Assembly (NCBI GenBank): GCA_028823395.1
Contig: JAPKBO010000006.1
Coordinates: 1 to 43,831, forward strand
Direction: 5' to 3'
From: Planctomycetota bacterium
GTDB taxonomy: Bacteria; Planctomycetota; UBA1135; GCA-002686595
DNA length: 43,831 nt
Shown: positions 36,538-41,511 of the stretch, piece by piece
How the letters are laid out: each line of letters opens with the position of its first letter
Position numbering within the stretch: the first letter of the stretch is position 1
Made by a program: the position numbers and the translations under genes
Notes under the pieces: model-generated
Database searches by the model: none
What the model was told of the DNA's origin: nothing
The model's input: only the letters and a program-made list of their open reading frames with translations

Positions 36538-37635
36538 ATGGTTCTCTGCTCATCCCTGCTCTTCACCGTTTCCCTGGCGACCGCCCCGCCTCCAATGGAA
36601 CCCACCGCTCCGTGCCCTGCACCCGCTTGCGTGCAGGCCGATGATGACCCCGCCGACTTGCTCGAGGACATCATGGACGAGTACCAGGAGGCGAACGCCG
36701 AACTGGGACAGAACTACCGCAGTGCCGACGAAGAGCAACGCAAGCAGATCCTAGAGGTGGACCTGCCGAAGCTCAGCGAGACCTATGCACAGCGCGTCCT
36801 GAAACTAACGAGCGCCCACCCGGGCACGGATGTGGCCTGGGAGGGCCTCTCCTGGATCGTTAGCCGGGCTCGAGGCGCTGCTTGTCAGGCCGATGCCCTC
36901 TTGCAGATGTTCAAGGATTTCAGCAAGGACGAGCGCATCGGAGACACTTGCCTGACCGTGGCTCGTGGACCCTTTACCAAGAGCACCGTCAGGGCCCTCA
37001 ATAAGCTGATCAAGGACAGCCCGCACAAGGACGTACGCGGCCGGGCGACCTTCGCCCTCGCCATGCAGTACAAAGGTCTCGAGGACCAGAAGGGCTTCAT
37101 CAAGCAGATGTCCCTGGTCCAGAAGAAGTTCGCGGACGTCCCGTACACCCGCGGGACCCTAGGCCCCGTTGCCGAAGGCGCCATGTTCGAAGTGCAGCGA
37201 CTCCAGATCGGCATGGTCGCACCGGACATCGCGGGTGCGGACCTTCAAGGTGTCGACTTCAAGCTCTCCGACTATCTAGGCAAAGTGGTGGTGATCGACT
37301 TCTGGGGCAACTGGTGAGGCCCCTGTGTGGCCATGTACCCCCACGAGCGGTCGCTCGTGAAACGCCTCGCCGGTGAGCCTTTTGCCCTGATCGGTGTGAA
37401 CAGTGACAAAGACCTCGAAGCACTTCAGGACGTTCTCCTTGAAGAGAACATCACCTGGCGCTCCTTCTGGAACGGCCCCGAAGGAACTAGCGGCCCCATC
37501 TCCACCCAGTGGAACGTGCGCGGCTGGCCGACGATCTACATCCTCGACCACGAGGGCAAGATCCGCTTCAAGGGCCCGCGCGGCGAGGCCATGGACGAAG
37601 CCGTGGACCAGCTCCTCGCGGAGATGAAGGCTTAA
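36538..37635 (+). CDS. Exported TlpA-like redoxin, predicted selenoprotein (Sec260), copy 1
   Basis: If the TGA at 37315-37317 is read as selenocysteine the product has 365 residues. A signal peptide (MVLCSSLLFTVSLATA) precedes a mostly helical domain of about 190 residues. The C-terminal thioredoxin domain (about 225-365) reads IGMVAPDI, KLSDYLGKVVVIDFWGNW, Sec260-Gly-Pro-Cys263, a conserved MYPHERSLVKRL helix, GVNSDKD, and the cis-Pro331 in GWPTIYILD. Ordinary family members have CGPC, so TGA replaces the attacking cysteine exactly. Without readthrough the protein would stop at the active site and lose half its fold. A hairpin with GGTC loop follows (37342-37359). It probably reduces or isomerises disulfides, or acts as a peroxidase-like reductant, outside the cytoplasm. 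The gene follows the sulfatase by 134 bases; the copy 2 gene follows at once. Confidence 0.85.
37300..37499 (+). repeat. 200-base identical repeat across the Sec codon, unit 1
   Basis: Every base is identical to 38442-38641 (offset 1142), spanning the codons before TGA, the hairpin and most of the thioredoxin domain. Flanking coding sequence differs: upstream the two proteins are only partly similar, downstream a few substitutions appear (37500 onward). Confidence 0.9.
37342..37359 (+). promoter_or_regulatory. Predicted bacterial SECIS hairpin, copy 1
   Basis: A perfect 7-bp stem CACGAGC/GCTCGTG with a GGTC tetraloop at 37349-37352, starting 25 bases after the TGA; 31 bases lie between TGA and loop. 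The E. coli fdhF SECIS loop contains the same GGTC, where SelB contacts the G and U. Distance fits the 16-37-base range I recall for bacterial SECIS elements. Unlike fdhF there is no obvious bulged U in the upper stem. Confidence 0.8.
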
Positions 37636-37637
37636 AA

Positions 37638-38777
37638 CTGAGCTCCACCCTCAGCATCGGGTTTCTGTGCTCACTCCTGCTACCGGCCGCGCTATGTGCG
37701 GCCGGTAGTTCGTCTGAGGGATCCACCCCCCCCCTCGGCCTCACTGCCGAAAGGGCCGACGATGGCGATGAGCAACTGGAAGACCTCATCGACGAGTTCG
37801 ATGAGCGCATGGCGAAATTCAGGGCGGCATACCAGGCCGAGCAGGATGAGGCCAAGCGCAATAAAATCCTTGAAGATACGTACCCCAACCCCACCGACTA
37901 CGCCCCTCGCTTCCGCGCTTTGGCCACCCAGTTCAAGGGCACAGAGGCCGGCGCCGGTGCCCTGATCTGGATCGCCACCAGTTTCTATGGGGACACCCAA
38001 GAAGCAACCGTTGACGAATTGCTCAAGGACTACAAGGACAGTCCGCTGCTGGAGCAGGTGATGTACACCTTGGGACAGCGCGAGGACGACGAATCCCGAG
38101 TCCACTTACGCTCACTGCTCGCGGATAGCCCGCACCGTAACGTGCAGGCCGGCGCCTGCCACGCCCTGGCTCTGAACCTGCGTGGATTGGCAGCCAACAC
38201 CAAACGGGGTGAACAGAAAGAGGCCCTGATGGCGGAGTCCCGAGCATTGTTCATGCGGGTGCAGAATGACTTCGACGACGTGCCGTACCGCGGTCGCACG
38301 CTCGGCGCGGTGGCGCGCGCCGAACTGTTCGAATCCGACCGCCTGCAAATCGGCATGTTGGCCCCCGACATCGAGGGGGCAGACCTCAATGGCGTCGCGT
38401 TCAAACTCAGTGACTACCGTGGCAAGGTCGTGGTGCTCGATTTCTGGGGCAACTGGTGAGGCCCCTGTGTGGCCATGTACCCCCACGAGCGGTCGCTCGT
38501 GAAACGCCTCGCCGGTGAGCCTTTTGCCCTGATCGGTGTGAACAGTGACAAAGACCTCGAAGCACTTCAGGACGTTCTCCTTGAAGAGAACATCACCTGG
38601 CGCTCCTTCTGGAACGGCCCCGAAGGAACTAGCGGCCCCATATCCACCCGCTGGAACGTGCGCGGTTGGCCAACGATCTACATCCTCGACCACGAGGGCA
38701 AGATCCGCTTCAAGGGCCCGCGCGGCAAGGCCATGGACAAGGCCGTGGACAAGCTACTGGCCGAAATGAAAGAGTAG
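37638..38777 (+). CDS. Exported TlpA-like redoxin, predicted selenoprotein (Sec274), copy 2
   Basis: With TGA at 38457-38459 read as selenocysteine, and a CTG start, the product has 379 residues with Sec274-Gly-Pro-Cys277. The CTG lies 2 bases after the copy 1 stop with GAAGG 7 bases upstream; the only other in-frame alternatives are a GTG at 37509 inside copy 1 or a late ATG that would cut into the conserved domain. From the CTG a clear signal peptide follows (LSSTLSIGFLCSLLLPAALCA). The helical domain resembles that of copy 1 (for example EQLEDLIDEFDE against DLLEDIMDEYQE; ADSPHRNVQAG against KDSPHKDVRGR), and the thioredoxin half is nearly identical. It ends 13 bases from the convergent topA stop. 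The start choice is the least certain part. Confidence 0.8.
37679..37709 (+). repeat. Strong hairpin in the 5' coding region of selenoprotein copy 2
   Basis: A perfect 10-bp inverted repeat TACCGGCCGC/GCGGCCGGTA (37681-37690, 37698-37707) with a 7-base loop, extended by one C-G pair and a G-T wobble. It encodes part of the signal peptide cleavage region. No T-run follows. It could slow or gate translation, or protect/process the mRNA between the two copies. Confidence 0.6.
38442..38641 (+). repeat. 200-base identical repeat across the Sec codon, unit 2
   Basis: Exact partner of 37300-37499; see the matching unit. The identity includes synonymous third positions, so it exceeds what protein constraint alone would require. 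Confidence 0.9.
38484..38501 (+). promoter_or_regulatory. Predicted bacterial SECIS hairpin, copy 2
   Basis: Same 7-bp stem and GGTC loop (38491-38494) as copy 1, at the same distance from its TGA. Confidence 0.8.
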
Positions 38778-38790
38778 CGCCTCCGTCGCG

Positions 38791-41511
38791 TCAGTCTTTC
38801 TTCCCGTTCGGCTTCTTCTTGGCCGCAGATTTCTTGGCCGCCTTTTTCTTGGCCGCTGGCTTCTTCTTGACGGCCTTCTTTTTAGCGGACTTCTTCTTGG
38901 CGCCTTTCTTCTTGGTCGCCTTCTTCTTCGCCCGTCGCCCGCCCTTGCGCTCGCGCTGACGCTCGAGGATATCCAGGGCATCGCCCTCCTCCAGATCCTC
39001 GGGGTTGGAGCCCTTGGGTAGAGAGGCATTGACGACGCCGTCCGTGACGTAGGGACCCCAGCGCCCTTCCAGGAGGAGAATCGTGCCCCCATCCAATGCA
39101 GGCACGTCCTTGAAGGACTTGATCTCCTTGGGTTTGGTCCGGTAGTTGCGCCGCGTGGGCTCTTGAGCCAGCAGTTCGAGCGCGCGCTCCAGGGACAGCG
39201 TCAGGAGATTATCCTCGGGTGTCAAACTGCGAGTGTCCTCATCGCGCTTGATGTAGGGACCATAGCGGCCGTTAAAGGCCAGGATTTCGACCTTGTTGGT
39301 GTCCTCCCCAACCTTGCGGGGCAGGGCCAACAACTGCAGCGCCGTGTCCAGATCGACACCCTCAGGCTCCATGTCCTTCAGGAGCGAAGCCATCTTGGGC
39401 TTGGTATCCGCCTCGTCATCCGGGAGGCCCAATTGCACGTAGGGACCGTAGCGGCCGGACTTCAAGAAGATGGGCTCGCCCGTATCGGGGTGCTCCCCGA
39501 GAGGCTCCTTGCCCTTCTCGCTGGCCGCCAGAAGCCGCGTGGCGGATTCCACGTCGATCTCGTCCGGACAGGTCAGATCGGGCACCGTGGCAGTCGTGTC
39601 CCCCCGTTGCAGGAAGGGCCCATAGCGGCCTACTCGCAGGACGATCTCACGCTGCTTGTCGTCGGTGCCGACGGGCAAACTGCAAACCACACGCGGATCG
39701 ATCTCCGCCACGCTCGTTTCGAGCAGAGGCTTGAGCCCCGTGTCGCTCGTACCGAAGTAGAACTCTTTGAGATAATCGGACCGGTTCTCCTCGCCCTTGG
39801 CGATGGCGTCCAAGCGACTCTCCATCCCTACGGTGAAGCTGAGATCCACCAGGTGCGTCAGGTGATCCTGAAGCAGCTTGGTCACCGCGAAGGCCGTGAA
39901 GGTGGGCACCAAGGCCGACCCCTTCTTGAAGGTGTAGTCACGGCGCTGAATAGTGTCGATGATCGAGGCGTAGGTACTCGGCCGGCCGATACCCGACTCC
40001 TCTAGAGCCTTGACCAGTGTGGCCTCAGTCAAGCGCGCAGGAGGGGAGGTCTTGTGCTCTTCCGCGGTCAGGTCCGTGGAAGTCATTCTGTCCCCCTGCT
40101 CAACCGCCGGGAGGATCTTCTCTTGATCCGCTAGGGCCTGCCCCGGGTCGTCGGCACCCTCAACGTAGGCGCGCAGGTAGCCCGGGAAGTCGATCACGTT
40201 ACCCCCAGCCTGGAACACCGCTTGTCCCCCCTCGGGCCCGCCGACGTTCCCCACGCGTAAACTCATACGCCGCCCACGGGCGTCCCGCATCTGGGAGGCC
40301 ATGGTGCGCTTCCAGATCAACTCGTAGACCTTCGCCTCGTCCTGACCTAGTTGCTTACGGATCTCCTCAATCGGAGTTATGCGGTCACCCGCCGGACGGA
40401 TGGCCTCGTGGGCCTCCTGGGCATTGCTGACCTTGCTCTTGTAGGTACGCGGCTTCTCGGGAACGAAATCATCGCCATACTGGGCCGAGATCTCCTGACG
40501 CGTCATGTCGATGGCAACCTGACTCAACGCCACCGAGTCGGTCCGCATATAAGTGATGTACCCGTTCTCGTACAGGCGTTGGGCCGCACGCATGGTGCGC
40601 TTGGCATCAAAGCGCAGTTTGCGGTTGCCCTCCTGCTGCAGTGTTGAGGTATGGAATGGAGGTGAGGGTTTCTTCGTAAAGGGCTTCTCTTCTGCGGACA
40701 GGATATCGAAGGGCTCACTCTCAATCGTCTTGACGAGCGCCTCGGCCGCGGCACCGTCCAGCAGCGTCACGTCATCCCGTTTCAGCATGCCCGTGTCGGC
40801 ATCGAAGTCTTTACCCGCAGCAATGCGCTGCCCGCCGAGACTCACCAAGTTGGCTTCGAACACCTCGTCCGCGGGAGTCTTGAAGGAAGCCACTAGGTCC
40901 CAGTACTGGGCCTCGCAGAATCGTATGCGCGCCTTCTCGCGTGCCACCAACAAGCCCACCGCCACGGACTGCACACGCCCGGCGGACAACTTCGGCTTAA
41001 TCTTACGCCACAAGACGGGCGAGACGCCGTAACCGAACAGGCGGTCAATAATGCGCCGCGTCTCCTGGGCCTGCACCATGTTGCCGTCAATGTCGCGGGT
41101 ATCCTCAAGCGCCTCTAGAATCGCCCCCTTGGTGATCTCATGGAACACCATGCGACGAACCGGACACTCAGGCTGCAGCACCTCCATCAAGTGCCAGGCG
41201 ATAGCCTCTCCCTCGCGGTCTTCATCCGTAGCCAGCAGCAGCGCGTCGCACGTCTTAAGCTTGGCCTTGAGCTCTTTGATACGAGCCCTGGCGTCAGGCT
41301 TGATCACATACAGCGGCTCGAAGTCCTCCTCCACGTTGACCGCCAGACTGGCCCACTCCAGCTTCTTGTATTTAGCGGGTACTTCGGCTGCCTTGCCCGG
41401 CAGGTCACGGATGTGGCCCACGCTGGACTCCACCAGATAGTCGGGACCCAGGTACTTACGCAGGGTCTTGGCCTTAGTGGGTGATTCGACGATGACGAGG
41501 GTTTTGGACAT
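38791..41511 (-). CDS. topA: DNA topoisomerase I (type IA) with histone-like C-terminal tail
   Basis: A 906-residue enzyme that relaxes negative supercoils. The Toprim domain shows VIVESPTKAKTLRKYL and the acidic DEDREGEAIAWHL; the catalytic Tyr (about residue 318) lies in GYITYMRTDS; GRVQSVAVGLLVAREK and SNAQEAHEAIRP are further family blocks. Instead of C-terminal zinc fingers it has about four Topoisom_CrpT-type repeats, each with GRYGP or GRWGP. The last about 50 residues are Lys/Ala-rich (KKKATKKKGAKKKSAKKK), like histone H1 tails, and should bind DNA non-specifically. It converges on the second selenoprotein gene with a 13-base gap. Confidence 0.97.
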   Translation of the reverse strand: MSKTLVIVESPTKAKTLRKYLGPDYLVESSVGHIRDLPGKAAEVPAKYKKLEWASLAVNVEEDFEPLYVIKPDARARIKELKAKLKTCDALLLATDEDREGEAIAWHLMEVLQPECPVRRMVFHEITKGAILEALEDTRDIDGNMVQAQETRRIIDRLFGYGVSPVLWRKIKPKLSAGRVQSVAVGLLVAREKARIRFCEAQYWDLVASFKTPADEVFEANLVSLGGQRIAAGKDFDADTGMLKRDDVTLLDGAAAEALVKTIESEPFDILSAEEKPFTKKPSPPFHTSTLQQEGNRKLRFDAKRTMRAAQRLYENGYITYMRTDSVALSQVAIDMTRQEISAQYGDDFVPEKPRTYKSKVSNAQEAHEAIRPAGDRITPIEEIRKQLGQDEAKVYELIWKRTMASQMRDARGRRMSLRVGNVGGPEGGQAVFQAGGNVIDFPGYLRAYVEGADDPGQALADQEKILPAVEQGDRMTSTDLTAEEHKTSPPARLTEATLVKALEESGIGRPSTYASIIDTIQRRDYTFKKGSALVPTFTAFAVTKLLQDHLTHLVDLSFTVGMESRLDAIAKGEENRSDYLKEFYFGTSDTGLKPLLETSVAEIDPRVVCSLPVGTDDKQREIVLRVGRYGPFLQRGDTTATVPDLTCPDEIDVESATRLLAASEKGKEPLGEHPDTGEPIFLKSGRYGPYVQLGLPDDEADTKPKMASLLKDMEPEGVDLDTALQLLALPRKVGEDTNKVEILAFNGRYGPYIKRDEDTRSLTPEDNLLTLSLERALELLAQEPTRRNYRTKPKEIKSFKDVPALDGGTILLLEGRWGPYVTDGVVNASLPKGSNPEDLEEGDALDILERQRERKGGRRAKKKATKKKGAKKKSAKKKAVKKKPAAKKKAAKKSAAKKKPNGKKD

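Follow-up and report, generated by a model that had tools for sequence, protein, structure and literature searches.

A probable SECIS hairpin in two tandem genes for TlpA/ResA-like selenoproteins and its shifted relatives in Planctomycetota

The analysis of a 43,831-nucleotide stretch of DNA from a Planctomycetota bacterium (the window) indicated that the hairpin found downstream of two in-frame TGA codons very probably acts as the SECIS of two tandemly arranged genes encoding exported TlpA/ResA-like selenoproteins. This assignment is based on the freezing of synonymous codons within the hairpin, on compensatory changes in homologues, on the absence of the structure from homologues carrying Cys and on the presence of the selenocysteine (Sec) machinery in the genome. 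The features of the two genes are collected in Table 1.

Table 1. Position of the two genes, their Sec codons and the associated RNA and repeat features within the window.
Feature	Coordinates	Strand	Basis or remark
Gene 1: exported TlpA/ResA-like thioredoxin-fold selenoprotein, WUGPC motif, 365 aa	36538..37635	+	TGA=U translation; Pfam
Gene 2: paralogue in tandem with gene 1, from the same protein family	37638..38777	+	TGA=U translation; Pfam
Sec UGA codon of gene 1, in frame, at a Cys position of the WCGPC motif	37315..37317	+	TGA in almost every homologue of the family, otherwise a Cys codon
Sec UGA codon of gene 2, in frame	38457..38459	+	TGA=U translation
Spacer, 24 nt, with weak UGA-proximal hairpin (GGCC 37318-37321/GGCC 37329-37332)	37318..37341	+	
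Putative SECIS hairpin 1: stem CACGAGC 37342-37348, loop GGUC 37349-37352, stem GCUCGUG 37353-37359	37342..37359	+	Fold, codon freezing, compensatory changes
Putative SECIS hairpin 2, same sequence as hairpin 1	38484..38501	+	Exact match
200-nt tract, copy 1, identical to 38442-38641	37300..37499	+	Gene conversion or recent duplication
200-nt tract, copy 2, identical to 37300-37499	38442..38641	+	Spans TGA and hairpin

Gene 1 was assigned the ATG at 36538 as start codon, with TTG 36526 as an alternative, and its product matched the Pfam AhpC-TSA model with 54.5 bits, Thioredoxin_8 and Redoxin likewise scoring over the cut-off. When TGA is read as Sec, gene 2 encodes a product of about 379 aa whose start is uncertain, the candidates being CTG 37638, which has AAGG ahead and lies directly past the end of gene 1, or GTG 37509. 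Within 37509-37641 no ATG, GTG or TTG is found close to the signal peptide of gene 2. Both products show a signal-like N-terminus followed by a C-terminal TlpA/ResA-like thioredoxin domain with the WUGPC motif. The occurrence of an AhpC-TSA/Redoxin/thioredoxin domain above Pfam gathering scores, with UxxC in place of CxxC, assigns them to the TlpA/ResA-like thiol-disulfide oxidoreductases, and the NCBIfam models returned values far under their curated cut-offs (55.7 vs 170 bits for ResA, 46.3 vs 230 bits for TlpA). Homologues were found in 81 of the 81 genomes of the family, with one in-frame TGA in most among the matches listed, and the six named homologue records comprised five from Planctomycetota and one labelled Verrucomicrobiales. 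The neighbouring gene on the opposite strand (38791-41511) encodes 906 aa and carries a long, low-complexity tail rich in lysine and alanine at its end.

The N-terminal halves of genes 1 and 2 align poorly at the nucleotide level, unlike the 200-nt exact run, and a comparable situation is found in sister genome G025; the identity of the two tracts suggests gene conversion of the Sec domain between the tandem paralogues. Hairpins 1 and 2 are identical because the two genes share this run, and the presence of two copies in the window was rejected as proof of constraint, both lying inside the tract; that evidence is provided by the homologues.

The sequence-only reading of this DNA had placed the same stem-loop 25 bases behind each Sec TGA. 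The exact 18-nt matches were recovered, and the distance proved right within one base, 24 nt separating the end of each TGA (37317, 38459) from the stem. The sequence CACGAGCGGTCGCTCGTG was found exactly at 37342-37359 and 38484-38501, against a chance expectation of 0.14 matches at three or fewer mismatches, and in the whole 3.8-Mb genome CGAGCGGTCGCTCG occurred exactly only at hairpins 1 and 2, 14-mer copies with one mismatch being no commoner elsewhere than those of a reversed control. RNAfold calculations, which that reading had proposed as a check, returned the hairpin in every context tried, from 51 to 131 nt, and the isolated element showed an MFE of -10.5 kcal/mol with a z value of -4.0. 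A longer-context fold in which CUGGUGAGGC paired with GCCUCGCCGG around the hairpin was rejected because the downstream codons are not conserved in homologues. An Rfam scan of the whole window gave no match. A near-perfect inverted repeat in two copies might also represent an intrinsic terminator, a DNA-binding site or the end of a mobile element spread by duplication; however, the position of the repeat is fixed relative to the TGA in 106 genes from many families, no further exact copies occur in the genome, no U-tract is present and the element lies inside coding sequence, making such an origin almost inconceivable.

The genome of the window contains SelB, SelA and SelD, together with a tRNA-Sec scoring 73.4 bits and bearing a TCA anticodon. 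Hairpins close to stop codons can raise readthrough, and the UGA might be decoded as Trp or by plain readthrough, with the hairpin acting as a readthrough or pausing element. This explanation is very improbable, as homologues have Cys at exactly the UGA position of the CxxC active site and the Sec machinery, including the tRNA, is complete. SelB was found over the cut-off in one copy in each genome of the family that has it. Its RNA-binding domain is canonical: the C-terminus matches the SelB chains 1wsu, 2ply and 2pjp, and the last winged helix (WH4), in which the R-D-x-L-G-x-x-R-K motif is retained, can be aligned with the RNA-binding domains of the SelB proteins from M. thermoacetica and E. 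coli. No extra domain that might bridge the spacing was detected in SelB, whose likely true start gives a protein of about 638 aa aligning with E. coli SelB over its whole length.

Sites from TlpA/ResA-like genes were then collected from the family and the phylum, resulting in 191 Sec and 14 Cys sites. The Sec sites were sorted into 106 with the architecture of the window (type I), 76 of a second architecture (type II) and 9 with neither; since type I was defined by loop and stem, the invariance across its 106 sites arises partly by construction, which does not apply to the codon count in proteins reading ERSLV. Among the 67 Sec proteins of the family with this motif, GAG was used in 66, CGG in 66, TCG in 67 and CTC in 66, counts that, like those of the sites, are not probabilities because related sequences are not independent. 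In the same genes CGG represents 11% of Arg codons and TCG 22% of Ser codons. The conserved Pro beside ERSLV is encoded by CCG (32), CCC (17), CCA (9) and CCT (6) and the adjacent Val by four codons. The 106 type I sites displayed the same codon freezing, with equally conserved neighbouring residues varying freely. As HERSLV is strongly conserved in the group and the genome is GC-rich, codon bias acting on a conserved peptide might generate a hairpin without function, but this is highly unlikely considering that minority codons (CGG, TCG) are used in 66-67 of the 67 proteins, that neighbours under equal conservation are free in their codons and that a codon-shuffled null was rejected. Furthermore, the lone ERSLV protein with other codons (L066; GAA AGG TCG) has a shifted type II hairpin instead, GUCGCU-CGUGA-AGCGAC.

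Compensatory changes, which the sequence-only reading had proposed to look for, were found in homologues. In CACGAAC-GGUC-GUUCGUG, present at three sites in two genomes (twice in L261, once in L262), a synonymous Glu GAG to GAA change is accompanied by Leu to Phe, converting a G-C into an A-U pair, while in CAUGAGC-GGUC-GCUCAUG (L244) a synonymous His CAC to CAT change occurs together with Val to Met, converting C-G into U-A. A further variant type I hairpin, AACGAGC-GGUC-GCUCGUU, was found in L240. The type I compensatory changes come from families other than that of the window; their small number reflects the near-invariance of the element, and the stem showed 5 double-change cells vs 0.4 in shuffles.

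The constraint was evaluated with a null model in which synonymous codons were redrawn and the best stem was scored in distal, proximal and control stretches. For non-redundant sites, the distal region returned z values of 1.96 for type I (72 sites), 1.69 for type II (46), 3.65 for selD (19) and 0.21 for Cys homologues (13), and the hairpin was absent from Cys homologues. The corresponding proximal values were 0.84, 2.86, 2.83 and -0.33. Stretches taken further downstream as controls ranged from -0.61 to 0.40 across sets, with -0.15 and -0.32 for type I, and an MFE version of the null gave the same picture. The strong proximal hairpins of type II and selD might indicate that the SECIS is the UGA-proximal hairpin, at an E. 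coli-like spacing, and the distal one secondary. We consider this unlikely, since in type I, the window included, the proximal z of 0.84 compares with a distal z of 1.96, and GU is retained in the distal loop, in contrast to the freely varying proximal one. The weak proximal pairing led us to reject the proximal hairpin as the main element of type I. In the protein tree, at least nine changes between Sec and Cys were counted.

According to the sequence-only reading, homologues retaining TGA and losing the hairpin would speak against the element. Such homologues exist in part: at the 76 type II sites the type I hairpin is replaced by a shifted one with compensatory changes, and 9 of the 191 sites have neither. 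Type II sites carry a UGA-proximal hairpin and a distal hairpin shifted by 7 nt, with a spacing of 38 nt from UGA to loop. The proximal hairpin has a variable loop (CGUGGGG-AUGAUU-CCCCACG, GUGCG/CGCAC, GUGAGG/CCUCAC), and the distal one follows the pattern GNNGCU-[C/G]GUNN-AGCNNC, in which the loop keeps GU. The column pair 36/50 of type II had the highest mutual information of any pair in the stretch, with G-C, A-U, U-A and C-G all seen, and the distal stem showed 96.7% pairing with 23 double-change cells vs a shuffle maximum of 13; slid versions of the stem all collapsed. The protein tree requires at fewest two changes between types I and II, a value that is indicative only, as the motif columns were included in the tree. 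Neither the two-hairpin plan nor the 7-nt shift was described in the literature searched, which comprised papers outside subscription.

The third Sec-TlpA gene of the window's genome (L139, contig C130) has a type II SECIS, and both architectures therefore coexist with one SelB. In the same genome selD, which adjoins selA (L227, contig C176), is itself a selenoprotein gene with an in-frame TGA, as in almost all relatives where selD was found. Its mRNA shows a proximal hairpin around UGCCCAUGGGGCA followed by CUCACGCAG-GUU-CUGCGUGAG. Compensatory changes occur here too, and the loop contains GU in every case. With the U of UGA numbered 1, GU occupies positions 36-37 in type I elements, 37-38 in selD and 43-44 in type II, compared with 23-24 in E. 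coli fdhF (PMC8659212). As each genome has one SelB, the same protein presumably reads all three layouts.

As a group, the nine Sec sites with neither structure gave no signal above the codon-shuffled null. The TlpA homologues L242, L243, L255, L233, L238 and L258 keep the TGA although no clear hairpin lies within some 50 nt of it, and a partial type II stem is present in L265. The genomes of the exceptional sites that were checked all have a SelB match, that of G209, at a contig end, being under the cut-off. In family f40, one of the exceptions, the SelB recognition helix reads EAKDVIGGTRK vs the usual PELRDRLGTTRK; two other exception genomes keep the usual motif, and this divergence is therefore only a lead.

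From these data we infer the following mechanism. The 7-bp hairpin, about 24 nt downstream, would still be folded on arrival of the ribosome at the UGA. SelB, loaded with Sec-tRNA-Sec, would most likely grip the GGUC loop with its fourth winged-helix domain, through G and U, the bases used in E. coli, and the bound SelB would deliver selenocysteine at the UGA in place of termination. Since the bulged U needed by E. coli SelB is absent here, recognition must differ somewhat. The putative [G/C]GU recognition loop lies further from the UGA than in fdhF, by 13 nt in type I up to 20 nt in type II, and in type II and selD the UGA-proximal hairpin may fold up the extra spacer. More broadly, Planctomycetota might possess a distinct long-spaced class of SECIS, in which one and the same SelB recognises, with no bulged U, a [G/C]GU loop placed 36 to 44 nt from the UGA, type II TlpA and selD pack the spacer into the proximal hairpin, and, inside a single gene family, the recognition hairpin jumped 7 nt, the old 3' arm becoming the new 5' arm and loop and dragging the protein sequence along; we hold this wider proposal to be quite plausible, if just short of probable. 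The substitutions observed (Leu to Phe, Val to Met, Glu/Leu against Thr/Arg) suggest an RNA signal that constrains, and even changes, protein residues to keep base pairs. A single protein family of one lineage thus provides about 190 natural Sec sites, and selD adds to them; the hairpins are backed by statistics, and with presumably one SelB per genome the rules of SelB recognition (loop, bulge, spacing and proximal hairpin) become directly testable.

A 2026 review (PMC13188914) defines the bacterial SECIS consensus by an upper stem of 4-16 bp, a UGA-to-apical-loop spacing of 16-37 nt and an MFE of at most -7.5 kcal/mol, and reports that many bacterial SECIS are unlike each other and unlike that of E. 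coli, some falling outside the model. The hairpin of the window lies within an ORF downstream of an in-frame Sec UGA, aligned with the Cys of homologues, and has a 4-nt loop starting with GG, a 7-bp stem, the MFE given above and a spacing of 31 nt (37318-37348), near the upper end of the range; every value lies inside the limits, and the model therefore classes the element as a bacterial SECIS. It differs in being nearly invariant in sequence across a phylum, and its type II relatives, with their 38-nt spacing and second hairpin, fall just outside the model. For E. coli fdhF, PMC8659212 describes U17 and G23 as essential, a distance of 11 nt between the UGA and the start of the upper hairpin, and a loop containing G23-U24. 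The likeness to the fdhF loop claimed by the sequence-only reading was confirmed, the apical loop being GGUC with G and U at the places of G23 and U24, and so were the differences: the 7-bp stem is unbroken, with no bulged U17, and starts 24 instead of 11 nt from the UGA, 13 nt further out. In addition, the UGA of the window lies outside any conserved lower stem. Having neither the bulged U17 nor the 11-nt spacing, the element does not belong to the fdhF subtype; the earlier suggestion of a distinct SECIS type thus holds in respect of fdhF and does not hold in respect of the published consensus.

Selenoproteins of Planctomycetes have been reported (PMC4807772) and a class of Sec-containing selD genes noted (PMC4561486). 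The planctomycete selD element shares with that of the window the succession of UGA, proximal hairpin and stem with a [G/C]GU loop, G37 and U38 corresponding to G36 and U37 of type I, but its stem reaches up to 9 bp, its loop has 3-5 nt and its proximal hairpin is stronger. As for the proteins, the review lists 'Thiol-disulfide isomerase-like protein' and 'Redoxin family protein' as selenoprotein families (PMC13188914), with which the window proteins share the TlpA/redoxin fold and UxxC; they differ in having an N-terminal region ahead of the domain and in the occurrence of several paralogues per genome, some of them in tandem.
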